From Adlercreutzia hattorii (GTDB lineage Bacteria > Actinomycetota > Coriobacteriia > Coriobacteriales > Eggerthellaceae): DNA of 64,000 nt. Location of the stretch: NCBI RefSeq assembly GCF_011405655.1, contig NZ_AP022829.1, positions 2,403,001-2,467,000 of the forward strand. Reading direction: 5' to 3'. The position numbers were made by a program, and so were the translations under genes. Shown here piece by piece: positions 38,355-50,660 of the stretch. The notes under the pieces were generated by a model. It was not told the origin of the DNA, ran no database searches, and worked only from the letters and a program-made list of their open reading frames with translations. The stretch's first letter is position 1; each line of letters begins with the position of its first letter.

Positions 38355-40382
38355 ATGAACCCGAAGCAGAAGAAACTCCTCACCCGCATCATCGTCGCGC
38401 TCGTGCTGTTCGTCATCATCGAGGTGGCGGCCCAGACCGGCATCCTGCGCGCCGCCTTCGGCACCCCCGGCGACGTGTACGCCGAGTTCGCGTTGTTCCT
38501 CATCCCCTACCTCATCGCCGGCTACGACGTCATCGCCGGCGCCCTGCGCGGACTCGTTCACGGACACGCGCTGGACGAGGACTTCCTCATGACCGTGGCC
38601 ACCTTCGGCGCGTTTGCGCTGGTGCTGTTCCCCGACACCGAGCCGCACATGGCCGAAGGCGCGGCCGTGATGCTGTTCTTCCAGGTGGGCGAGCTATTCC
38701 AAAGCTACGCCGTGGACAAGTCGCGCCAGTCCATCGCGGACATGATGGATATCGCGCCCGAGTACGCGAACGTCATGGAGGAGGGCAAGCTGAAGCAGGT
38801 GGATCCCTTCGAGCTCGCCCCCGATGACGAGTTCATCGTCATGCCCGGCGAGCGCATCCCGCTTGACGGCACGGTGCTGACCGGCGAAAGCCAAATTGAC
38901 ACGGCGGCGCTCACCGGCGAGTCGGTGCCCCGCACGGCGCGCCCAGGCGACGAGGTCATCTCCGGCTGCGTGAACCTGACGGCCAAACTCGTCGTACGCG
39001 CCACCAAGCCCTTCGAGGACTCCACGGTAAGCCGCATCTTGGAATTGGTGGAAAACGCCGCCGAGAAGAAGGCACGCACCGAGAACTTCATCACCCGCTT
39101 CGCCCGCGTGTACACCCCCATCGTCGTGGGCGTGGCCGCTGTACTCGCCATCGCGCCCCCGCTGTTGTTCGGCGGTCAGTGGTCCGACTGGATCCTGCGC
39201 GGACTCACCTTCCTCGTGGTGTCGTGCCCCTGTGCGCTCGTGATTTCGGTACCGCTGTCGTTCTTCGGCGGCATCGGCGGGGCGTCGCGCCTTGGCATTT
39301 TGGTGAAAGGGTCGAACTACCTGGAAGCTTTAGGATCTACCGAAACCGTCGTGTTCGACAAGACCGGCACCTTGACCGACGGCACCTTCTCCGTGACCGA
39401 GCTCATCGGCGCCCCTGGCGTAAGCGAGACCGAGCTTATCGACATCGCCGCCGCAGCCGAGACCTTTTCCACCCATCCCATCGCGCAATCGGTGCGCGCC
39501 TATCGCGACTCCCTGACGACCGACGCGCGACCGGACAGCGACAACGACGCGAATCTGGCGCAACCGGACAGCGACTCCACCACGACTGGCGCGCGGCCCG
39601 GAAGCAGCTCCACCACAACCGCCGAACGGGTGCGCGACGTCCGCGAGATCAGCGGCCAGGGCGTGGAAGCGGTCGTGGACGGACGAAACGTGCTCGTGGG
39701 CAACGGCAAGCTCATGGCGGCCCATGACATCGCCTTCACGGCCACCGACGTGCCGGGCACCGTGCTCTACGTGGCCGCCGACGGCACCTACCTGGGCGCC
39801 ATCGTCATCGCCGACACCGTGAAGCCCGACGCCGCCCGCGCCATCGCCGATTTGCGCGCGGCCGGCGTGAAGAAGACCGTCATGCTCACGGGCGACCGCA
39901 CACCCGTGGCCCGGGCCGTCGCCGCCGAACTCGGCATCGACGAGGTGCACGCCGAGCTGCTTCCCCAAGACAAGGTGGCCGAGGTGGAGGCGCTTCTCGC
40001 CCAAACCGAGCGCGACACCAATGGCAAGGGCAAGCTCGCCTTCGTGGGCGATGGCATCAACGACGCACCCGTGCTCACCCGCGCCGACATCGGCATCGCC
40101 ATGGGCGCCATGGGTTCGGACGCCGCCATCGAGGCCGCCGACATCGTGCTCATGAACGACGACCCCGACGACATCGCCCGCGCCATTCACCTGGCGCGGC
40201 GCACCATGGGCATCGTCTGGCAGAACATCGTGTTTGCCCTGGGCGTCAAGTTTGCCGTGCTGGTGCTGGCCGCCTTCGGCATCGCCAACATGTGGATGGC
40301 CGTCTTCGCCGACGTGGGCGTGGCCGTCATCGCCATCTTGAACGCCATGCGCGCCATGAACGTGAAGCGCTACCTCGACTAA
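38355..40382 (+). CDS. P1B-type heavy-metal-efflux ATPase
   Basis: 675 residues. Membrane helices, TGES actuator loop (AALTGESVPR), CPC motif in VVSCPCALVIS, phosphorylation DKTGTLTDG, HP pair STHPIAQ, MLTGDRT and GDGINDAP. The CPC motif, ArsR partner and lack of a Cu-type N-terminal tandem fit Zn/Cd/Pb export (CadA/ZntA class). Insert of about 40 Asp/Thr/Ser residues (near 392-430) lies in the nucleotide domain and is not usual. Third gene of the operon, 8 bp after the HMA gene. Metal specificity is inferred. Confidence 0.93.
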   Translation: MNPKQKKLLTRIIVALVLFVIIEVAAQTGILRAAFGTPGDVYAEFALFLIPYLIAGYDVIAGALRGLVHGHALDEDFLMTVATFGAFALVLFPDTEPHMAEGAAVMLFFQVGELFQSYAVDKSRQSIADMMDIAPEYANVMEEGKLKQVDPFELAPDDEFIVMPGERIPLDGTVLTGESQIDTAALTGESVPRTARPGDEVISGCVNLTAKLVVRATKPFEDSTVSRILELVENAAEKKARTENFITRFARVYTPIVVGVAAVLAIAPPLLFGGQWSDWILRGLTFLVVSCPCALVISVPLSFFGGIGGASRLGILVKGSNYLEALGSTETVVFDKTGTLTDGTFSVTELIGAPGVSETELIDIAAAAETFSTHPIAQSVRAYRDSLTTDARPDSDNDANLAQPDSDSTTTGARPGSSSTTTAERVRDVREISGQGVEAVVDGRNVLVGNGKLMAAHDIAFTATDVPGTVLYVAADGTYLGAIVIADTVKPDAARAIADLRAAGVKKTVMLTGDRTPVARAVAAELGIDEVHAELLPQDKVAEVEALLAQTERDTNGKGKLAFVGDGINDAPVLTRADIGIAMGAMGSDAAIEAADIVLMNDDPDDIARAIHLARRTMGIVWQNIVFALGVKFAVLVLAAFGIANMWMAVFADVGVAVIAILNAMRAMNVKRYLD

Positions 40383-40443
40383 AGGCGAGCGGTCAAATCA
40401 ACTTTAAACTGCATTTCGGCAACCGCCCGTTCACAGGCTGGCT

Positions 40444-40482
40444 CATAGCCCCCGATTTTCCCAGTCGGGGGCTATGCTCTTT
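40444..40482 (+). terminator. Terminator of the metal operon
   Basis: Perfect 12-bp stem 40444-40455/40465-40476, short T-rich tail. Confidence 0.65.
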
Positions 40483-40583
40483 CCAGCACATCAGTTGCAC
40501 CACGCGCCGTCGCCTTCCAACGTCAACGGCGCGGCGACACTGCTGCGCGCACTTTGTGTTCCCGACCACTTTGGAGGTTCGTC

Positions 40584-41834
40584 ATGAAAGACGAGAAGGA
40601 GACCTTGCGGAAGACCGCCGATAGCATTCACGTGATGGAAAAGTTCGATCCGGCCATCCTCGCTGATGTGACCGCGCCCGTCGTGTCGCTCTATATTCCC
40701 GTGCACCACACCGAGCGCGAGGAGCGCCGCGATATCTGGGATCGCGACATGTTCAAGGATCTGATGAAGGATGCCGAGCGCACGCTCGCCGAAACCTACG
40801 ACAAAGATGCCTATAAGGGCATCGTCGAGAAGGCCGACTACCTGCTCGAGCATCCGGACATGCCGCTTTGGCTGCATGCCGGCGAGGGTCTGGGCTTCCT
40901 CATGAACAACGACGACATCTACGTGTACAACCTGTTCTTCGCCCCCGAGCCCATGGTGGCCGCCGGCGACACCTACTTCGTCAAGCCCCTGCTGCGCAAC
41001 TTCCAGTACGGCACCGAGTACTACGTGCTGGAGCTGGGCAACGACCGCTTCAGCTGGGTGAAGGGCGACCGCACCCACGTGGAGCGCCAGCAGCTGCCGC
41101 AGGAAGTGCACGACTTCTTCAGCGAGCTGTTCGCCAACAGTGACGACACCGCCGCCGACGCCCGCAAGGGCGAGAAGGGCGCGCTGGACTACATCTCGCT
41201 GGAGGGCCACATGGGCCAGTACCACGACCATCAGTCCCGCAATGAGGTGAAGAAGGACGACGCCCTGCCCTGGTTCCGCTATGTGAACAAGGCCGTGAAC
41301 GACTACCTCGTGCGCGATGACACCACCCCCATCATCCTGTGCTGCGACGAGGAGTACGAGCACGCCTTCCGCAAGCTCTCCACGCTGCGCCACCTCCTGC
41401 CCGTCGGCATCAAGAAGGATCCCGCCGGTCTTGACGGCAAGGCGCTTCTGGAAGAGTCGCTGACCGTGATGGACGGCATCCGCGATGCGAACATCAAGGA
41501 AACCGCCGAGAAGTTCGGCGCCGATGCGGCCCACGGCAAGGCCTCGGACGACTTCGACGCCATCGGCATGGCACTGGCCGAGCGCCGCGTGGGAGCGCTG
41601 TTCCTCGTGAAGGGCAAAATCCTCCCCGGCGGCTTCGACATCAACACCGGCACCGTCACCTTCGACGGGAACCCCAACCCAGTCGACGACGGCTACATCG
41701 ACCCGGCCGCGCCCGACATCACCGACGCCTTCGCCCAGGCGGCACTGGCCCAAGACGCCCACATCTACATCGTCGAGCAGGATCAGATGCCCACCGACCA
41801 ACCCGTCGCCGCCCTCTTCCGCTACGCGGAGTAA
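40584..41834 (+). CDS. baeRF-like (bacterial archaeo-eukaryotic release-factor-like) protein
   Basis: 416 residues from the ATG at 40584 with GGAGG before. VVSLYIPVHHTEREERRD near the start, LLEHPDMPLWLHAGEGLGFL, PEPMVAAGDTYFVKPLLRNF and a late GALFLVKGKILPGG agree with baeRF families, which are related to eRF1 domains and are proposed to act on ribosomes or stress responses. No signal peptide. Monocistronic. The family is known from comparative genomics; its role here is unknown. Confidence 0.65.
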   Translation: MKDEKETLRKTADSIHVMEKFDPAILADVTAPVVSLYIPVHHTEREERRDIWDRDMFKDLMKDAERTLAETYDKDAYKGIVEKADYLLEHPDMPLWLHAGEGLGFLMNNDDIYVYNLFFAPEPMVAAGDTYFVKPLLRNFQYGTEYYVLELGNDRFSWVKGDRTHVERQQLPQEVHDFFSELFANSDDTAADARKGEKGALDYISLEGHMGQYHDHQSRNEVKKDDALPWFRYVNKAVNDYLVRDDTTPIILCCDEEYEHAFRKLSTLRHLLPVGIKKDPAGLDGKALLEESLTVMDGIRDANIKETAEKFGADAAHGKASDDFDAIGMALAERRVGALFLVKGKILPGGFDINTGTVTFDGNPNPVDDGYIDPAAPDITDAFAQAALAQDAHIYIVEQDQMPTDQPVAALFRYAE

Positions 41835-41866
41835 CTCGCCCGACATCGCGACGAATAGCTATACTG

Positions 41867-41896
41867 AAAGGGAGCTCTTATGGGCTCCCTTTTTTC
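41867..41896 (+). terminator. Terminator before the patatin gene
   Basis: 9-bp stem 41867-41875/41884-41892 followed by T6. Confidence 0.75.
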
Positions 41897-41915
41897 GCGC
41901 CTCGAAGGAGTCCTC

Positions 41916-42833
41916 ATGACCGACCCCGCCAAATATGCCGGCCTCACCATCAACCAGCCCGATGTGGCGCTCATCTTCGAGGGCGGCGGCATGCGCAACA
42001 GCTACACTGCCGGCATGGTGGTGGAGCTGCTCGCGCGCAACCTGAACTTCGGGCGCGTCTACGGCATCTCGGCCGGATCCAGCCATACGGTGAACTACCT
42101 GGTGCGCGACGCCACCCGTGCCCGTGCCTCCTTCGTCGATCTGGTGAAGTACCCGCGCTTCGGCGGCTGGGGCAGCTTCTTGCGGGGCACCGGCTACTTC
42201 AACAGCCCTTACCTTTACGAGGAGCTGATCGAGAACGCGGCCGCCGGCGACCCCATGGCCTTCGACTGGGACACCTTCGCCGCCAACCCGGCCGAGATGC
42301 ATATCGAGGCCATGGATTGGAACACCGGCGAGACCGTCGCCTGGACCCGCGCCGATGTGAAAGACGCCCACGACCTGGGACTGAAAGTGCGCGCGTCGTC
42401 CACCATGCCCATCTTCATGCCGCCTACCACCATCGATGGGCGCACCTATATGGACGGCGGCATGGGAGATAGCTGGGGCATCCTGCTGAATGCCGCCCGC
42501 GCCGACGGCTACGAGCGCTTCTGCATCATCCGCACCCAGCCGCGCGGTTATCGCAAGCGCCCCATGAGCCGCGCCGCCCAAGCGCTCTTCCGCGCCGCCT
42601 TCCGCGCGCATCCCATCGTGGCCGAGCGCACCATCGCGCGCTGGCAGCCCTACAACGAGCTCTGCGACGAGATAGAGCACCTGGAAGAGGCGGCCGCCGC
42701 CTGGGTCTTCTACCCCGACACCATGGACGTCACCAACAAGACCACCGACTACGACGCCCTCGTCCGCTCCTACGAGACCGGCCTCGCCCAGGCCAAACGC
42801 GATATCGGCTCCCTCATCGAGTGGCTCGGCTAA
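41916..42833 (+). CDS. Patatin-like phospholipase
   Basis: 305 residues from the ATG at 41916 (AAGGAG five bases before). Oxyanion loop FEGGGMRNSY, serine motif GISAGSSH (GxSxG) and the second catalytic motif DGGMGDSW (DGG/DGA type) are present, so a Ser-Asp hydrolase acting on lipids is expected. No signal peptide. A separate 3' fragment of the same family, with high similarity in the last 45 residues, is found in the pseudogene at 49006-49288. Follows a terminator, so likely has its own promoter. Confidence 0.92.
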   Translation: MTDPAKYAGLTINQPDVALIFEGGGMRNSYTAGMVVELLARNLNFGRVYGISAGSSHTVNYLVRDATRARASFVDLVKYPRFGGWGSFLRGTGYFNSPYLYEELIENAAAGDPMAFDWDTFAANPAEMHIEAMDWNTGETVAWTRADVKDAHDLGLKVRASSTMPIFMPPTTIDGRTYMDGGMGDSWGILLNAARADGYERFCIIRTQPRGYRKRPMSRAAQALFRAAFRAHPIVAERTIARWQPYNELCDEIEHLEEAAAAWVFYPDTMDVTNKTTDYDALVRSYETGLAQAKRDIGSLIEWLG

Positions 42834-42940
42834 ACCGCCTATAAAGCAAGAGCACCCCGCAAAGGAGAGTACAGGCAAATCGCCAGGTGCTCTTTCGGAA
42901 GCCGAGAAGACGCCATCCTAGGGGTAGAACGAACGACCTT

Positions 42941-44464
42941 TTAATATTGCTCAATGAACGAAGCTAAGTCACTGCGGCTATGGACATCAAGTTTTTGGTA
43001 GATGTTCTGTACATGGGTCCGCACGGTGTTCAGCCCCATACAAAGCTCTTCCGCGATTTCTTTGTTCCCACGTCCCGCAGCCAGCATTCCCAATACCTCA
43101 GCTGTGCGTGGAGGCAAGTGATACTGCGCCGCAATGCGCTCGCATTTGTGGTTGAGATACTCTTCTCTGGCTTGCTGAAGATCAAACGCAGAGCGATCAG
43201 TTACCTCAGGGGCTTCCTGAATCGATACCTGGGTCAGCTCCACAAGGTTTCCCCCCGAGAGAACTACCGTCGCGCAACACACCACGACTAGAACAAGAGC
43301 AACCCAAAGATATTCGCCCCCTTGGAAGCTGTAAATCGACTTTAGATAGCCTGCACCGAGCAAATACCCCGCTATCGACCCCGCCAAAAATGCGGCGCGG
43401 CCAAACGCAACGATACAAAGTGCCCGCTTTCGACCCACGAAGGCAGCCGCGGCAATGAGGCACCATGACAAAACATCGAGAACCAGGTAGAGCGCATTAG
43501 TCAGTTCGAACATCCAATGAGCGTCTACCCCGACCGCAAACACCAGAAGTAACGCAAAAACGCAGCTGACCACAACCAAATAGTAAACTCCACGTAGCAT
43601 GGATACCGAGAGACCCTTAACTGCCAGCAGCATAAGCGACAAGCAGGAAACCAGGGCGAGGAACATCATCGAATGGAGATAACCCTCCTGAGAGGCGTCT
43701 AGGAACAGCACACGCCCCATGCCAGCCACAGCCGCAAACACGAAGAACGCCGAGAAGAACCGCCAGAAATCGACAAGCGATACGCGCAGTCCCCTCTCGC
43801 CTTCCTCAGCCTCGTCAGCTCGCTTCCCTCCCTTTCTATAAGGGCCAGTGAGCACCAGCGCCGTCGTTGTCATCGGGAGCAAAGCCAACACGAGCCCTGC
43901 TGATATCAGAGTGACGCACGAAACCACAAACCAAATAAGCATTGAGAGAACCGACGATGCCGAGATAAAGAGAAACGCACGCTTGGGCCCCTCTTCAGCA
44001 AGATCAAGACCAATCCTCACGGCAAGTGGAGCCATTCCCGCAGCCGAAACGCATGAGCCGAGGCCGAAGAAGAAGGGGGTCAAAAACCCTACGGAGAACA
44101 GCATGAGCAGCGATCCCGCAGTCGCAACAAGAGCGAAGCCGGAAATAGCCAGCGGAAGCGAAAGAACCCTCAACGTTCGACGAGGAAGGAACGCCGCTGC
44201 TACGAAAGCTGCCACAAGAGTCAGAGAGGGAGCCACGAAGAGAAAGATGCGCTCTACGGGACCCGCCGCATTGAAGCGAATCCACGACTCCCCGAAAAAC
44301 GTCATATGGTACCAAGCCATATAAAACGCCAGGGCGAAGCAATGAATGCCGGGCCACTTCTTCCCCTCGTCCGACAAAGCCGCAAACAAACCGCCCATGC
44401 TCTTTGTAGATGCCGCGCCTCTCGCCAATTTGCCAGCACCTCCAAAGTATCGCCGGCTACGCAC
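42941..44464 (-). CDS. Membrane-anchored LuxR regulator of the DMSO-reductase operon
   Basis: 507 residues from the GTG at 44464, which overlaps the torD stop (TAG at 44457-44459); a later ATG or TTG start is possible, since no strong ribosome-binding site marks one. About 12 hydrophobic helices, a charged break near residue 225 (RKGGKRADEAEEGERG), and a C-terminal LuxR domain (LPPRTAEVLGMLAAGRGNKEIAEELCMG). It is the last gene of the reductase operon, so it likely senses the substrate or redox state for it. Similar in plan but not sequence to the regulators at 3.1 and 50.8 kb. Confidence 0.85.
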   Translation of the reverse strand: MRSRRYFGGAGKLARGAASTKSMGGLFAALSDEGKKWPGIHCFALAFYMAWYHMTFFGESWIRFNAAGPVERIFLFVAPSLTLVAAFVAAAFLPRRTLRVLSLPLAISGFALVATAGSLLMLFSVGFLTPFFFGLGSCVSAAGMAPLAVRIGLDLAEEGPKRAFLFISASSVLSMLIWFVVSCVTLISAGLVLALLPMTTTALVLTGPYRKGGKRADEAEEGERGLRVSLVDFWRFFSAFFVFAAVAGMGRVLFLDASQEGYLHSMMFLALVSCLSLMLLAVKGLSVSMLRGVYYLVVVSCVFALLLVFAVGVDAHWMFELTNALYLVLDVLSWCLIAAAAFVGRKRALCIVAFGRAAFLAGSIAGYLLGAGYLKSIYSFQGGEYLWVALVLVVVCCATVVLSGGNLVELTQVSIQEAPEVTDRSAFDLQQAREEYLNHKCERIAAQYHLPPRTAEVLGMLAAGRGNKEIAEELCMGLNTVRTHVQNIYQKLDVHSRSDLASFIEQY

Positions 44465-45092
44465 ACTCCTTCAGGACGAGGAGACATGCCTCCAGCCCCT
44501 TCGCCCAATTAGCATAATACCCCGTTTTGTCCCGCTCCTGCAGCGACTTAGAAAAAATGGGAGTCCAGCGGGCAAGGTGCTCATCGGCAAAACGGGCCGC
44601 ATCTGCAACGAGAGCACGGCCCTCCTCCTCTTCGTCGGCTAAGGCGGCTCTTAGACAGAGGGCGGAAAGAAAGCCAAGCTCGATGGCGATATGGTCATCG
44701 GCCACCTGTTGAAACTTATCGGCTACATAGCCAAGTGACTTATAGAAATTGCGAACATCGAGGGTACTTTCCTGAAAGAGGAGCTGAGGGTTGCCAACAT
44801 ACGTGGATTCCCAGGGAGAAACCTCGAGCGAAGGGCTTACGAATAAGCGATAGTATCCCTCCCCGATGCGCTGGAAGTCATTCTCATCTGTCAAAAACTG
44901 GTCCATAGCGCAGGCAATAGCCTCGTTGCCTCCCAACCCAAGAAGGGCAAGAGCTTCCTGGAAGGTATCTTCGCGCAACGCATTGACCTGTCCAACACTG
45001 GGCTCTGCGCCGAATACGCTCTGTAACACCTTCAGCACCAAACCGAAGGCAGCCGCCTTTTGCCGATCAAATACGCTTACGTCTGTGCTCAT
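44457..45092 (-). CDS. TorD-family chaperone
   Basis: 211 residues from the ATG at 45092 (GGAAAGG before). All-helical, with the TorD/DmsD-family motif YYRLFVSPSLEVSPWESTY and AIELGFLSALC-type segment. Such chaperones bind the Tat signal and fold the Mo cofactor enzyme. It serves the DmsA-type protein in the same operon. The longer open frame to 45260 has no support. Overlaps the LuxR gene by 8 bp. Confidence 0.88.
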   Translation of the reverse strand: MSTDVSVFDRQKAAAFGLVLKVLQSVFGAEPSVGQVNALREDTFQEALALLGLGGNEAIACAMDQFLTDENDFQRIGEGYYRLFVSPSLEVSPWESTYVGNPQLLFQESTLDVRNFYKSLGYVADKFQQVADDHIAIELGFLSALCLRAALADEEEEGRALVADAARFADEHLARWTPIFSKSLQERDKTGYYANWAKGLEACLLVLKECA

Positions 45093-45291
45093 TGGCCTTT
45101 CCTTTCCTTCGGCTCGGTAGACAGTTCTCCGAACATTTTCAGATTTGAAAACTTCAGCATATGGAAGGCGACCGCGCACAATTGCAATCGCCTTCCATCT
45201 CGCACGCTCATTTCGCGAACACTCGCCTTCGCGGCTTTTCAAATCGCATCTTTCCAGCAAGCATCCCTATAGACGAACGCTGGCGATTCTC

Positions 45292-45873
45292 TTAATAGAC
45301 GCTCTGAACAGTGAATTCTTCTTCAAGAGCACAGGCACGCGGGTTTATAAGCAGCGAAGGGTTCGTCTCGCTAGCGGAGGGCAGCACCGGAATCTCCGAC
45401 ACCAAGCCTTCGCCATGAAGAGCGCGCAGATCGTCCAAATCGCCGAACTCCAAGCAGCGCATCAGGCAAGAATCGACACAGACGGGGTTCCCTCCAGCGG
45501 CAGTTAAATCCGAACAACCGTCGCACTTACGGCTCACACTTGCCTCCGCGTCATACTGGGGTTGGCCATAGGGGCACGACATTACGCAAGACCGACAACC
45601 AATGCATACCTCTTCATCGATAGTTACCAGTCCCTGCTCGTTCTTCGCGCAAGCTCCCGAAGGGCAGTTGCTCACACACGCAGGGTCTTCGCAGTGATTG
45701 CAGCCTTCGGAAATGTGGAAGAATGACCCCTCGGGGAAGCGTCCCGCTTCTACCGTCACCACACGGCGGAACAACATTCCCACCGGAAGAGCATTCTTGT
45801 CCTTGCAGGCAATCTGACAGGTTCGGCAACCAATGCAATTGACTGCGTCGAAGTAAAATCCCATACGTCCCAT
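45292..45873 (-). CDS. DmsB-type four-cluster ferredoxin subunit
   Basis: 193 residues from the ATG at 45873, GAGGAGG before. Four Cys clusters in usual order: CIGCRTCQIACK, CNHCEDPACVSNCP, CIGCRSCVMSCPYG and CDGCSDL...CVDSC, each for a [4Fe-4S] centre. It passes electrons to the molybdenum subunit just 2 bp upstream. No signal peptide, so it should be exported with the catalytic partner. No membrane anchor gene (DmsC/NrfD) lies in the operon. Confidence 0.93.
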   Translation of the reverse strand: MGRMGFYFDAVNCIGCRTCQIACKDKNALPVGMLFRRVVTVEAGRFPEGSFFHISEGCNHCEDPACVSNCPSGACAKNEQGLVTIDEEVCIGCRSCVMSCPYGQPQYDAEASVSRKCDGCSDLTAAGGNPVCVDSCLMRCLEFGDLDDLRALHGEGLVSEIPVLPSASETNPSLLINPRACALEEEFTVQSVY

Positions 45874-45875
45874 CG

Positions 45876-48572
45876 TTACTCCTCCTCGTCTTTCTGGCAT
45901 TCGGGCATCGCCACAGGACGCTCCCAATCTTCAGGGCTGCCATCCACCTTGGTCACCGAGCAAATCTGGGTGTTGTATCCCGAGACGCCCGTGCCGCCCG
46001 TCACCGAGCCGCACAGCGTGGCGCCGGATCCGCCTAGATCGTTTCCTTGCTCGTCCATCTCAAACCATCCTCCATGGGGTAGCCCAACCACGCCAGGCAT
46101 GATGCGGTTGGTCACACAAGCCTGACGCACCACCCGACCGTAATCGTTCTCAACGAGAACCGTGTCGCCGGTCTCAATGCCTAACGACTCGGCATCTTCC
46201 AGACTTATGAACAGCGGGCGTTTGAATGCCTCGCGAAGCTCCAAGATGTTATCGAAGTGAGCGTGCGCTGTACGGGGGTAGTGAGGATTGAAGAGCTGGA
46301 AGGGATACGGGCCTTTTTCGCGTGCCTCATAGTTCGCAAATGTCGCCTTATAGCCGAACTTCTGATCATCGACGTATTCGGGCACGGGGGACACGACGCC
46401 CCATCCTGCGCGAGAGGTTTGCTCTTCCAGGCGACGACAGTACAGTTCCATCTTGCCGCTTTCGCTCGCGAGGGGATTTTCCTCGGGAGCAGTTCGGAAC
46501 GCCTCGTATGCGATGTGCCCGTGATTGTCAGATTCAGAACGGGGTACGGTTATCACGCCCTGCTTTAGCGCGTCCCGGTAGGAAATCTTACCTTCTTGGG
46601 GCTCACCTTCCACGCCGAGGGCTGCGATGTCCTCTGCGGTAAAGGTAACAAGGGGCGAGAAGGTCTTTCCGTCGTCCTCAATAATCTGCGTCCCGGAAAT
46701 CTGATAGAACGATTGCTGCTCGTCGGAGTACGGATAGGCCAAATCGGGGTCGATGCCCCAGCGCGCGAGGAGTTCGCGTCCAATCCACGTGACCGACTTC
46801 GACTCCCAGAGCGGATCACACACCTTATCGCCCAAGAAAGCCGCCTCTCGCCCCGTGAACATACCCAACTGGGGCGGCAGCTCCCAGGGCGAGCACACGG
46901 GAAGTACGATATCGGAGTACTGGGCGTTCGGATTGAACGTAAGCGCATGGGTCACCACAAAATCCATCTTTCGGTAGGCCTCGATACCCTTTATCTGGTC
47001 TTCCGTACGGCTGAGCATATTGAGCGAATAGTTGTAGATACAGCGAACATCAATCTCGCGCTCTTCGCCTTCGAGAAATTGGCCAAGGCCGTTGTACACG
47101 TAGCGACCCTCCAGAATCGCGGGCCACAGCAGCGGATCCTGAATGCAATCATCAACGGGGTCGGGCACGCATGGCAACTTTCTCCAGCCCGGGTTGATGA
47201 GCGCATTGCCGCCACTTGCCGAGGTGTCGCGCAAGCTGCTGCCGGTCATATGGCCCGACTTGCCGAAATGTCCACCGAGCACGCACCCCACTGCCATAAG
47301 AATCTGAGGAAGGTTATCTACGTCGTTGCAGCGCCCCGGACCCCATCCACAAAGCAGGGCCGTCTTGTTTTCCATACCCAGCACATAGGCAATCTCTCGA
47401 ATCTTGCCTGCAGGAACGCCGCAAATCTCCTCTGCCCACTCGGGATTTTTGGCACAACCGTCATAAATTCCCAGAATATGGTCTTTGAAGTTCCTCTCGG
47501 TGTCGGCGCCCTCCGGCATGGATTCGGCATCGAAGCCGATGGAGCAGCGATTGACCACGTCCCAATCAATAAGCGGATTACTCTTGGGATCATCCTCGGT
47601 GATCATCACGTAGGCGCACGCCATGAGAAACGCGATATCAGTGCCAGGGCGAATGGGCACCCATTCCGCACCCAAGACCTCTGCCGTGTCCGTATGCATG
47701 GGGTCGATGCAGTAAAACTTGCATCCGGCGTCTCTCATGGGCACGAAATTCGCCCACAAGGTTGTGCCGTCAGAGCTCCAAGCAGGGTTCACGCCAACCA
47801 TGACCGCGTATTCGCAGTTGCGTGCGTCAAGTCGATCATTAAGCATGTCGATGCCGCCACCAGCATTAGCTGTTCCAAAACCCACCAGTTCGGGAACGTT
47901 CTGGAAAGAGCCCGCCGAGCCCGTGCCGTAATGGGACACTTGACCGCCGTAAAGATTCAGCACATTGAAGAATTCCAGCCCCTTGATGAAGAAGTCAGGA
48001 AAATCGATGTACATTTCATAATCAACATAAGTACGGTTCGTGGGCTGTTGACCACTTCCGAGAATGGCACGGTTTCCATAGGTTTCCTTGATGCGCGTTA
48101 TTTCGTCTGCCACCATATCGAGAGCTTCGTCCCACGAGATGCGCTCCCACTCGTCAATGCCACGTAGGTCACCGTTGACGTTATCGCCGCCACCCGGCTG
48201 CCAGTGCTTCCGCTTCATAGGGAAGCGAACGCGGTCCTTCGAGAACACGTCAAACTTTCTCGAGCGGCCACGCAAGCAGGCGCGGTGCTGAGGATGATTG
48301 AAAGAATCGTCGTGGGTGTCGTCAGTTTTAAGCCTGAGGACGGTGCCGTCTTTCACATAGGCTTTGAGTCCACATTTGCCGCCGCAATGCGCCCAGCACA
48401 CTACTGGCTTCCACTCCGGTTCAACTTCTTCCAACTCTCCTGTCTCTGCCATTCGGACGTTGTTTTCGGAGCACCCTAGGCTTGTAGCGCCCAAGGCAGC
48501 AACCGTGGCGGCACACGCGCCAATGAAGCCCCTTCGAGACAAATCTGACAATCTCTTCTCCGTATTAGACAT
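45876..48572 (-). CDS. DMSO-reductase-family molybdenum catalytic subunit, Tat-exported
   Basis: 898 residues from the ATG at 48572 with GAAAAGGGG before it. The Tat motif SRRGFIGA with hydrophobic run, [4Fe-4S] Cys (CWAHCGGKCG...CLRG), and HYGTGSAGSF, where the Ser matches the DmsA ligand position. Molybdopterin domains run to the end. It reduces an S-oxide, N-oxide or other acceptor; the exact acceptor is unknown and the class has many paralogues in Eggerthellaceae. First gene of dmsA-dmsB-torD-luxR, with about 200 bp before torD. Confidence 0.93.
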   Translation of the reverse strand: MSNTEKRLSDLSRRGFIGACAATVAALGATSLGCSENNVRMAETGELEEVEPEWKPVVCWAHCGGKCGLKAYVKDGTVLRLKTDDTHDDSFNHPQHRACLRGRSRKFDVFSKDRVRFPMKRKHWQPGGGDNVNGDLRGIDEWERISWDEALDMVADEITRIKETYGNRAILGSGQQPTNRTYVDYEMYIDFPDFFIKGLEFFNVLNLYGGQVSHYGTGSAGSFQNVPELVGFGTANAGGGIDMLNDRLDARNCEYAVMVGVNPAWSSDGTTLWANFVPMRDAGCKFYCIDPMHTDTAEVLGAEWVPIRPGTDIAFLMACAYVMITEDDPKSNPLIDWDVVNRCSIGFDAESMPEGADTERNFKDHILGIYDGCAKNPEWAEEICGVPAGKIREIAYVLGMENKTALLCGWGPGRCNDVDNLPQILMAVGCVLGGHFGKSGHMTGSSLRDTSASGGNALINPGWRKLPCVPDPVDDCIQDPLLWPAILEGRYVYNGLGQFLEGEEREIDVRCIYNYSLNMLSRTEDQIKGIEAYRKMDFVVTHALTFNPNAQYSDIVLPVCSPWELPPQLGMFTGREAAFLGDKVCDPLWESKSVTWIGRELLARWGIDPDLAYPYSDEQQSFYQISGTQIIEDDGKTFSPLVTFTAEDIAALGVEGEPQEGKISYRDALKQGVITVPRSESDNHGHIAYEAFRTAPEENPLASESGKMELYCRRLEEQTSRAGWGVVSPVPEYVDDQKFGYKATFANYEAREKGPYPFQLFNPHYPRTAHAHFDNILELREAFKRPLFISLEDAESLGIETGDTVLVENDYGRVVRQACVTNRIMPGVVGLPHGGWFEMDEQGNDLGGSGATLCGSVTGGTGVSGYNTQICSVTKVDGSPEDWERPVAMPECQKDEEE

Positions 48573-49005
48573 AGTTCCCCTTTTCTCTCTACGGGATAAA
48601 GCGTTCTTGCAAACATCCCGGTTTGCAAGCGCCGACAATCCGCAAGATAGAACGCGGGGCTATACTTGTCCTCATCTATTCAGACGTTTGCGGGTTTTGG
48701 GACTAGTTCTTTTGGATGAGTCCAGTTTTGACCTGGGTTTTTTGTTATTTAGCTATAGTGAAGTTGCCGTCAATGCGACCATCTGATGGCGCGAGCGAAG
48801 GCAGCGACGAGGCGAACGCAATATTTAGAGCACCGTACTACTATCTCCCAAATGCCCTCGCTCGCTTCTAATGCCAACAAATAAGCACGACTAACCATTT
48901 CCAAATATCAAGGCTCGGTCATTCGCTATTGTTCGCAATGTCCATCCATTGCGTTCACGGACCACCCGTACGCGAACGCCAGCAAATGAAAGACTCGGAA
49001 CCCTC
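48573..49005. other. Promoter region upstream of the reductase operon
   Basis: Contains T-rich stretches at 48690-48755 that could hold promoter elements and a regulator site; no ORF is supported. No clear dyad beyond a short GGACT...AGTCC pair at 48699-48722. Confidence 0.4.
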
Positions 49006-49288
49006 ATGAGCATCTATGATTTCAGCGTTAGAGTCTAAGGCGACACCGACGTGCCGCTGTCCAAATACAAGGATAAGGTGCTTCTTATCGTTAACACCGC
49101 CACCAGTCACGGTTTCACCCCACAGTACGAAGGCCCGGAGAAGACGGGCGCCGCCTGGATCTTCTATCCCGACAAGATGGAAGTCACCAACAAGACCACC
49201 GACTACGATGCCCTCGTGAAAATCCTACAAGGACGGCCTCGCCCAAACCCAGCGCGACATCACATCCCTCGTAGAATGGCTGGGCTAA
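49006..49288 (+). pseudogene. Chimeric remnant: glutathione-peroxidase head fused to patatin tail
   Basis: Starts MSIYDFSVRV, then a stop at 49036-49038, then VPLSKYKDKVLLIVNTATSHGF, as in glutathione peroxidases, where the catalytic Cys (or Sec) position is His. After TPQYEGPE the sequence becomes GAAWIFYPDKMEVTNKTTDY, the same tail as the patatin at 41916-42833, with one extra base near 49218 so the end VEWLG is out of frame. So two fragments of different genes joined, both broken. No functional product expected. Confidence 0.8.
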
Positions 49289-49318
49289 GCCGACCGAGAG
49301 CCGGCAATCCTCCGAAGA

Positions 49319-49351
49319 CAAAAAAGGACCCCTCTCGTAAGCGGGGTCCTT
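49319..49351 (-). terminator. Terminator of rplJL
   Basis: 9-bp stem 49324-49332/49343-49351 followed on the minus strand by a T run. Confidence 0.85.
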
Positions 49352-49395
49352 GTGTTCAACCGTGATGGTTGGGAGAAGTCTTCGCGAAAGCGAAT

Positions 49396-49773
49396 TTACT
49401 TCAGGGTCACAGCGGCGCCGGCCTCTTCCAGCTTGCCCTTGATCTCCTCGGCCTTCTCCTTGTTCACGCCCTCGGCGACAGCCTTCGGAGCGCCCTCGAC
49501 GACCTCCTTGGCCTCCTTCAGGCCCAGGCCGGTGATCTCGCGGACAACCTTGATGACGGCGATCTTGTTGTCGCCGAAGCCCTCGAGCACGACGTCGAAG
49601 TCGGACTTCTCCTCGGCGGCAGCGCCACCCTCAGCCGGAGCGGCGGCGGCCACGGCCACCGGAGCGGCGGCGGACACGCCAAAGGTCTCCTCGATGTCCT
49701 TCACGAGCTCGGAAGCCTCGAGCAGGGACATCTCCTTCAAAGCCTCAATGATCTCTTCACGAGTAACAGCCAT
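49396..49773 (-). CDS. rplL: Ribosomal protein L7/L12
   Basis: 125 residues. N-terminal helix domain ([20 protein letters not shown]), Ala/Pro hinge, and C-terminal [41 protein letters not shown] as in all L7/L12. It forms the ribosomal stalk that recruits translation GTPases. Follows rplJ by 91 bp; GAAAGGA lies before the ATG. Confidence 0.98.
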
Positions 49774-49864
49774 GTTAGTTTCCTTTCAAAGGGGGCCGGC
49801 ACCTCTTCGCGCCGACCGTTATTTCTTCTTGCGTTACGCGACCCGTCTCAGGCCGCCCGAGCTG

Positions 49865-50386
49865 TTAGGCAGCTTCCTTCTGCTCGGCCACGGCCTTGAC
49901 GACCTGGGCCAAACCGCGCGGCACACCGTTGATGGTGGTAGCCAGACCGCGAGCGACGCCGGAGATGGCACCGGCGATCTGAGCCATGAGCTGCTCGCGA
50001 GAGGGCAGAGAAGCGATGGCCTCCACCTCTGCGGCCGACACGGCAGCGCCTTCCATCAGGCCGCCCTTGATCTCAAGGTTCTCGTTGGCCTTAGCGAAGG
50101 TCTTCAGGGCCTTAGCCGATGCGGCCACGTCGTTGCCGGAGAACACGAACGCGCTGGGGCCGGCGAGCATATCGTCGAGCGTCGGCAGTTCGGCCTCAGC
50201 GAGCGCCAGGTGAACCAGCGTGTTCTTGTAGACCTTCATCACCGAGCCGGTCTCGCGAATGTCGCGGCGCAGCTGCTGCATCTCCTTCACGGTAAGGCCG
50301 CGGTAATCCACGACCCACATGGCGGAAACGCCGTCGAGATCCTCCTTGATGCTGGCGAGCATCTCCTTGTTCTGAGCGTTGGGCAT
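49865..50386 (-). CDS. rplJ: Ribosomal protein L10
   Basis: 173 residues from the ATG at 50386, GGAGGTG upstream. WVVDYRGLTVKEMQQLRRDIRE and TLVHLALAE; a C-terminal helix for L12 dimers (VVKAVAEQ). L10 holds the L7/L12 stalk and in many bacteria binds its own leader RNA. The longer frame to 50449 is rejected by position of the ribosome-binding site. Confidence 0.97.
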   Translation of the reverse strand: MPNAQNKEMLASIKEDLDGVSAMWVVDYRGLTVKEMQQLRRDIRETGSVMKVYKNTLVHLALAEAELPTLDDMLAGPSAFVFSGNDVAASAKALKTFAKANENLEIKGGLMEGAAVSAAEVEAIASLPSREQLMAQIAGAISGVARGLATTINGVPRGLAQVVKAVAEQKEAA

Positions 50387-50389
50387 GTT

Positions 50390-50660
50390 GTACGTACACC
50401 TCCTTCTCAAAGCTTTCCGGGTTCCGCACCTGTGCTGGGTGGGCCGCAAGCCTTAAGATGAGAAAAGCGGCCCCCGCCCATAAGACGGAGGCCGCAGAAA
50501 TTCACGGTTGCGAATCTTCGACCACCTCGGCGGGCCGCTTTCGCGATTAAACCGAGCCGTTGCGCCAGGTGTCGCCCCTTCCGGAACGCCCCGCAGGCGG
50601 TTGCAGACTCGGTACCTGCTGTCTTAAGTAGCGGAACATATCTGTTCGTTGCACTGCCCA
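50390..50660 (-). promoter_or_regulatory. Putative L10 leader
   Basis: About 260 bases upstream of rplJ with several stems, including a terminator-like hairpin (50467-50477 pairing with 50484-50495) followed by T4 on the minus strand. Position fits the autoregulatory L10 leader. 50661-50807 has no further feature. Confidence 0.5.

Follow-up and report, generated by a model that had tools for sequence, protein, structure and literature searches.

A probable foreign-insertion scar: a glutathione peroxidase-patatin pseudogene beside rplL in Adlercreutzia hattorii

How did the front of a glutathione peroxidase (GPx) gene come to be joined, next to a conserved ribosomal operon, to the end of a patatin-like lipase gene? 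The stub in question lies at 49006-49288 of the window, the whole 64,000-nucleotide stretch analysed, which covers positions 2,403,001-2,467,000 of the single-contig, 2.91-Mb genome of Adlercreutzia hattorii. It is a dead scar, not a gene. It probably marks the right-hand end of a foreign insertion in which GPx and patatin were cut together beside rplL. Features are listed in Table 1, and the genomes compared represent one per species.

Table 1. Features of the stub and its surroundings (window coordinates)
Feature	Coordinates	Strand	Evidence
Intact patatin-like lipase (Patatin + DUF6363), beside baeRF as in congeners	41912..42833	+	PF01734 62.1 bits, PF19890 39.8 bits (on 41880-42833)
Foreign insert, without DNA counterpart at 8 congener loci	42834..49136	.	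No blastn alignment; GC 49-56%
LuxR-type regulator	42941..44464	-	Pfam GerE 55.4 bits; order identical in G034
TorD/nitrate-reductase-delta-like chaperone	44457..45260	-	PF02613 92.9 bits; order identical in G034
4Fe-4S subunit (DmsB-like)	45292..45927	-	Fer4_11 81.6 bits; 58% identity in G034
Molybdopterin oxidoreductase (DmsA-like), frame intact	45876..48638	-	PF00384, PF01568, PF04879; 61-62% in G034
GPx 5' part	49006..49140	+	PF00255 positions 1-41, 27.4 bits; DNA 74% over 49005-49140
GPx-patatin join	49137..49146	+	Alignments; placeable only to about 10 bases, where both relative types can match
Patatin-like lipase 3' end (47 codons + stop)	49144..49288	+	77-85% DNA to 6 congeners, 80% to own copy
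Terminator stretch downstream of rplL	49320..49400	-	76-79% DNA identity beside rplL in 7 of 8 congeners; none in G003

Composition and lesions of the stub

The front of the stub is the first 43 codons of GPx, to ..FTPQYEG, and translates from the ATG at 49006 as MSIYDFSVRV*GDTDVPLSKYKDKVLLIVNTATSHGFTPQYEG. It matches model positions 1-41 of 108 of Pfam GSHPx (PF00255) with one internal TAA, at an E value of 5.0e-6 and a score only just above the 27-bit cut-off; domain positions 42-108 are missing. Over 49005-49140 its DNA is 74% identical to the GPx of G049, a genome from another family of the order. The TAA stop is codon 11 of the GPx front (49036-49038). The first motif of GPx carries a peroxidatic Cys or Sec. 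CAC (His) at 49108-49110 aligns with the Cys codon of the G049 GPx, in place of TGC, TGT or TGA. A selenoprotein GPx is ruled out, since the slot codon is CAC and the inner stop is TAA.

The back of the stub, from 49137-49146 onward, corresponds to the ~50 C-terminal codons of a patatin-like lipase gene. Positions 49134-49292 match the patatin ending at 42833 at 80% DNA identity (E about 1e-33), and the GPx and patatin matches are both far above chance. The C-terminal end is likewise homologous to congener patatins. The tail carries an extra base in the A run at 49219-49222 relative to all seven intact patatins aligned (own and 6 congeners); in the shifted frame after the A run it reaches the usual end, with the stop at 49288. 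The Patatin domain has a Ser/Asp catalytic dyad. It spans residues 31-197 of the intact PF01734 + DUF6363 protein, and the homology of the tail starts at about residue 264 or, in DNA alignments, at 49134-49145; the catalytic region is absent from the tail. The GPx and patatin parts stand in one frame across the join, as expected by chance in 1 case of 3. The sole other match of 48700-49600 in its own genome is the 42-kb patatin, which rules out a repeated element.

These results bear out the sequence-only reading of this stretch as a chimeric GPx/patatin pseudogene with a stop and a Cys-to-His change in its front and one base inserted in its back. The domain match and the alignments across the join also support its view that two gene families were joined illegitimately. 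An intact fused protein was not found outside the window's own genome: GPx and patatin matches were each collected from 59 relatives, and no GPx match lay within about 48 kb of a patatin match on one contig.

The stop, the Cys-to-His change and the extra base may have been gained in any order. The tail has two private changes, both G to A, at 76 positions where the other seven sequences agree, no more than the 1-7 private changes of whole genes; its GC content is 57.5% vs 62-70% in those seven sequences. Changes by codon position were 0.23/0.26/0.51 in the GPx front vs 0.25/0.19/0.55 in working genes (counted on the 14 of 15 GPx fronts found that have no gap), and 0.27/0.25/0.48 in the tail vs 0.26/0.25/0.49. 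Neither spectrum differs clearly from that of working genes in the direction of relaxed selection. Decay may be recent, or the tests may be weak. The loss of the gene is evident from its breaks, not from the spectrum. No promoter-like site was found in 48560-49420, which says little because shuffled sequences yield just 0.6.

The old patatin position and the insert

A complete patatin stands tail to tail with rplL in six of the eight congeners (G001, G003, G004, G006, G007 and G008), and G002 and G005 have no match whatever to this patatin. In G003, G006, G007 and G008 baeRF lies directly before patatin; about 2 and 6 kb separate the two in G001 and G004, respectively. Other DNA fills the space between baeRF and rplL in G002 (about 7 kb) and G005 (about 1.5 kb). 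The order in the window is baeRF, whole patatin, LuxR, TorD, DmsB, DmsA, GPx front/patatin tail and rplL. Both patatin pieces are at ancestral borders, the whole copy next to baeRF and the tail next to rplL. Because six of eight congeners have an intact patatin ending beside rplL there, the tail is the stump at the patatin's old position; the locus is anchored by the terminator stretch on the rplL side, which is homologous to that of the congeners. The whole patatin lies beside baeRF together with a shared terminator-like intergenic stretch. The ATG at 41880 sits in that kind of stretch, so 41912 is the likelier start of the whole patatin, whose protein is 82-84% identical to those of six congeners.

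The interval from baeRF to rplL (41834-49396 in the window) is variable in Adlercreutzia. The window, G002 and G004 carry reductase-like genes there, G001 and G005 have other DNA, and G003, G006, G007 and G008 have patatin alone. The interval is likely an insertion hot spot. At its left border, 40200-41800 (ATPase end, intergenic stretch and baeRF) is 94-100% identical to G003 in seven of eight 200-base steps and 90% in the other; the longer G003 matches over 54.4-63.9 kb have 84-89% identity. This region is likely a recent recombination tract, ending just before patatin.

Blastn of about 42.84-49.13 kb against the eight congener loci gave no alignment. This insert of ~6.3 kb is low in GC: the four cassette genes have 53-56%, the stretch 48640-49005 has 48.9% and the GPx front has 51.9%, with 63-66% in the flanking ATPase, baeRF, whole patatin, rplL and next LuxR gene. 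The reductase genes of G002 and G004 in the same interval have just 25-35% protein identity to those of the window. The nearest cassette is in G034, from another genus, with identical gene order LuxR-TorD-DmsB-DmsA (locus L139, 6512-12139) and protein identities of 61-62% for DmsA, 58% for DmsB, 34% for LuxR and 36% for TorD. No GPx was found in the 3.9 kb beyond DmsA in G034. No tRNA gene is present in 38-54 kb, and a Pfam scan of the four cassette genes detected no integrase or transposase domain; a tRNA-borne or integrase-borne island was rejected on these grounds. The AT-richer stretch 48640-49005 lies between the divergent DmsA and GPx starts and holds no recognised gene; its part from 48700 on has no other match in its own genome.

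The sequence-only reading had proposed seeking an intact peroxidase and a second patatin in relatives at this place. An intact patatin is present there in six of eight congeners, as described above. No GPx above the PF00255 cut-off occurs anywhere in the eight congeners, two of which are incomplete (G006 79%, G003 85%); a weak match in G005 falls below the cut-off. A PF00255 search found no second GPx in the window's own genome. GPx is patchy, with matches in 24 of 60 genomes, 23 over the cut-off and the stub counted in both, and a search of 137 further family genomes gave DNA matches to the GPx front in 17, mostly short and at 67-85% identity. As none exceeds the cut-off in congeners, the distribution is patchy and other genomes of the family have matches, GPx most probably has an origin outside the genus and arrived with the cassette or next to it. 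No donor of the GPx front was found; outside the family, G049 gave the 74% match.

Formation of the join and origin of the two patatins

The window reads CCGGAGAAG at the join, with CCGGAG where some relatives have YTGGAG. The GPx side was compared using 24 of 30 loci, of which 9 gave no frame and 15 were readable; these fronts were picked by the motif C/U-G-x-T-x-Q-Y and are uninformative on Cys constancy. Two of the 15 have TTGGAG at the join (one TTGGAGAAG), and in the other 13 TGGAG is missing, with other bases there. On the patatin side, G001 and G004 have CTGGAGAAG, G006 CTGGAGAAA and the window's own copy CTGGAAGAG. GPx and patatin genes of relatives can share 5-8 bases at the join, from TGGAG to TGGAGAAG. 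In random joints between the 15 GPx and four congener patatin genes, at least 5 shared bases arose in 0.7% of draws (1.3% in frame) and at least 7 in 0.07% (0.17% in frame). Junction microhomology, which the sequence-only reading had proposed to check, is suggested by bases that relatives share, 2 of 15 on the GPx side. Evidence from such stand-ins for the true parents of the join is suggestive only.

The ancestral order would have been baeRF, patatin and, tail to tail with it, rplL. DNA carrying the LuxR-TorD-DmsB-DmsA cassette and at least the front of GPx would then have entered the gap between baeRF and rplL; this direction of transfer, and the arrival of GPx together with the cassette, are presumed. 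A short-homology, illegitimate join would have sealed the right end, where the GPx front met the ~50 C-terminal codons of the rplL-side patatin, and the remainder of both genes would have been lost. At the other end, next to baeRF, a patatin that is complete but diverged would have been kept or brought in, and the cell would not have lost its patatin. Homology-facilitated illegitimate recombination (HFIR) could do this in one step, with homology in baeRF or patatin anchoring one end and a few shared bases joining the other. It would leave a complete but diverged patatin at one border and a headless one at the other, with no duplication involved, and we infer it to be the likeliest single mechanism. 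A possible homologous anchor is baeRF, 94-100% identical to G003 in seven of eight steps; G003 itself is without the insert. ComEC and DprA families are present in all nine genomes of the genus and are compatible with transformation, but are no proof of it because the control was positive in E. coli and others too. HFIR is reported to have 3 to 10 bp shared at the joint in most cases and deletions of about the same size as the insert (PMC3240628). The number of shared bases may suit the join here, but the deletion size does not: the insert is ~6.3 kb vs ~0.75 kb missing from patatin.

A route in two steps is almost as likely as one-step HFIR, and is itself tentative. An insertion would first have placed an entire GPx next to an entire second patatin, and a later short-repeat deletion would have taken the GPx end and the patatin front. 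The end state is identical, the short shared stretch fits a deletion as well as an insertion join, and congeners carry different inserts in the interval. The cost is one more step and an intermediate that carried a pair of whole patatins, a state that none of the eight congeners shows.

The affinities of the two patatins bear on the remaining explanations. The tail is a direct repeat of 42700-42837, the copies lying 6.45 kb apart. Over 145 columns it is 81% identical to its own whole patatin, 83% to G006 and, over 126 columns, 82% to G007, the remaining sequences giving 74-79%; patatins of different species are 73-84% identical, except for two close pairs (96-97%). In trees the tail is placed with G006 (FastTree 0.948; IQ-TREE 84/92, not starred), and a tree constrained to unite it with its own copy loses 8.9 log units yet survives the AU test (p 0.156). 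G003 is the partner of both the whole patatin (support 0.998) and the baeRF locus (1.000). The window paired with G006 in 4 and with G003 in 4 (including baeRF and patatin) of 13 gene trees, and with neither alone in 5; three of these trees overlap in DNA because antisense frames were taken at baeRF (40491-41846) and rplL/rplJ (49553-50461), and some genomes are without some of the genes. G006 has a second, partial patatin match of 42% elsewhere in its genome.

These groupings would suit a tail that is the newcomer and a 42-kb copy that is the resident, a G006-like Adlercreutzia fragment having brought GPx, the tail and perhaps the rplL side. The low GC of the tail agrees with such an origin. 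The idea is nevertheless rather unlikely: rplL has no special affinity to G006 (98.1% identity to G002, 97.3% to G006 and to G004), and G006, at 79% completeness, has neither the cassette here nor a GPx match.

Less probable still is a tandem duplication of patatin in the lineage, with the cassette arriving later between the copies and the second copy decaying. Direct repeats would be its expected product, and the AU test leaves the grouping of the tail with its own copy standing. The copies are, however, just 81% alike although the tail has so few private changes at conserved sites, and the best match of the tail is G006. On solid grounds, the two patatins differ as orthologues of different species do, and this species-level identity speaks against recent duplication. 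The sequence-only suggestion that the nearby patatin, at 42.8 kb, took part in a recombination is likewise unsupported, given the tail-to-tail patatin of six congeners and the better match to G006; the resemblance of the tail to that copy holds, yet the copy is not its evident source. A 104-aa frame is readable from GTG 49051. A working short protein or fusion is nonetheless scarcely credible, given the in-frame stop, the lost Cys, the extra base and the missing lipase active-site region of the stub.

Significance and comparison with known systems

As the probable scar of an insertion, the stub records the entry of a respiratory reductase cassette into the chromosome of a gut Adlercreutzia, with no integrase or transposase seen among the cassette genes. 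It also points to an interval of variable content next to a conserved ribosomal operon. Further scars of this type, were they to turn up, would reveal how reductase cassettes move through the group. A further reading, possible but not favoured, is that baeRF-rplL is a hot spot for anaerobic reductase cassettes and the stub a natural HFIR scar of integrase-free entry, with baeRF/patatin homology on one side and few shared bases on the other. Literature searches found no title on a stub at the baeRF-rplL locus and no match for natural competence in Adlercreutzia.

Ordinary bacterial pseudogenes at variable intervals show truncation, stops and frameshifts. The stub shares all of these, and its place in an interval variable among congeners; unlike them, it joins two unrelated genes in one frame. 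It would resemble HFIR scars of natural transformation in that genes in common (baeRF, patatin) could anchor one end while the other joins unrelated DNA, perhaps at a few shared bases; it differs in the great disparity of inserted and lost lengths. In Vibrio T6SS effector arrays, the front of a resident gene is reported to be displaced by an arriving module, older 3' parts stay downstream, and HFIR is proposed as a putative mechanism (PMC5361080). The displaced front and the 3' part kept downstream are alike here; the leftovers in Vibrio are mainly immunity genes, whereas here a lipase stump remains. The stub is a pseudogene and recombination scar of a known kind, ordinary but well preserved.
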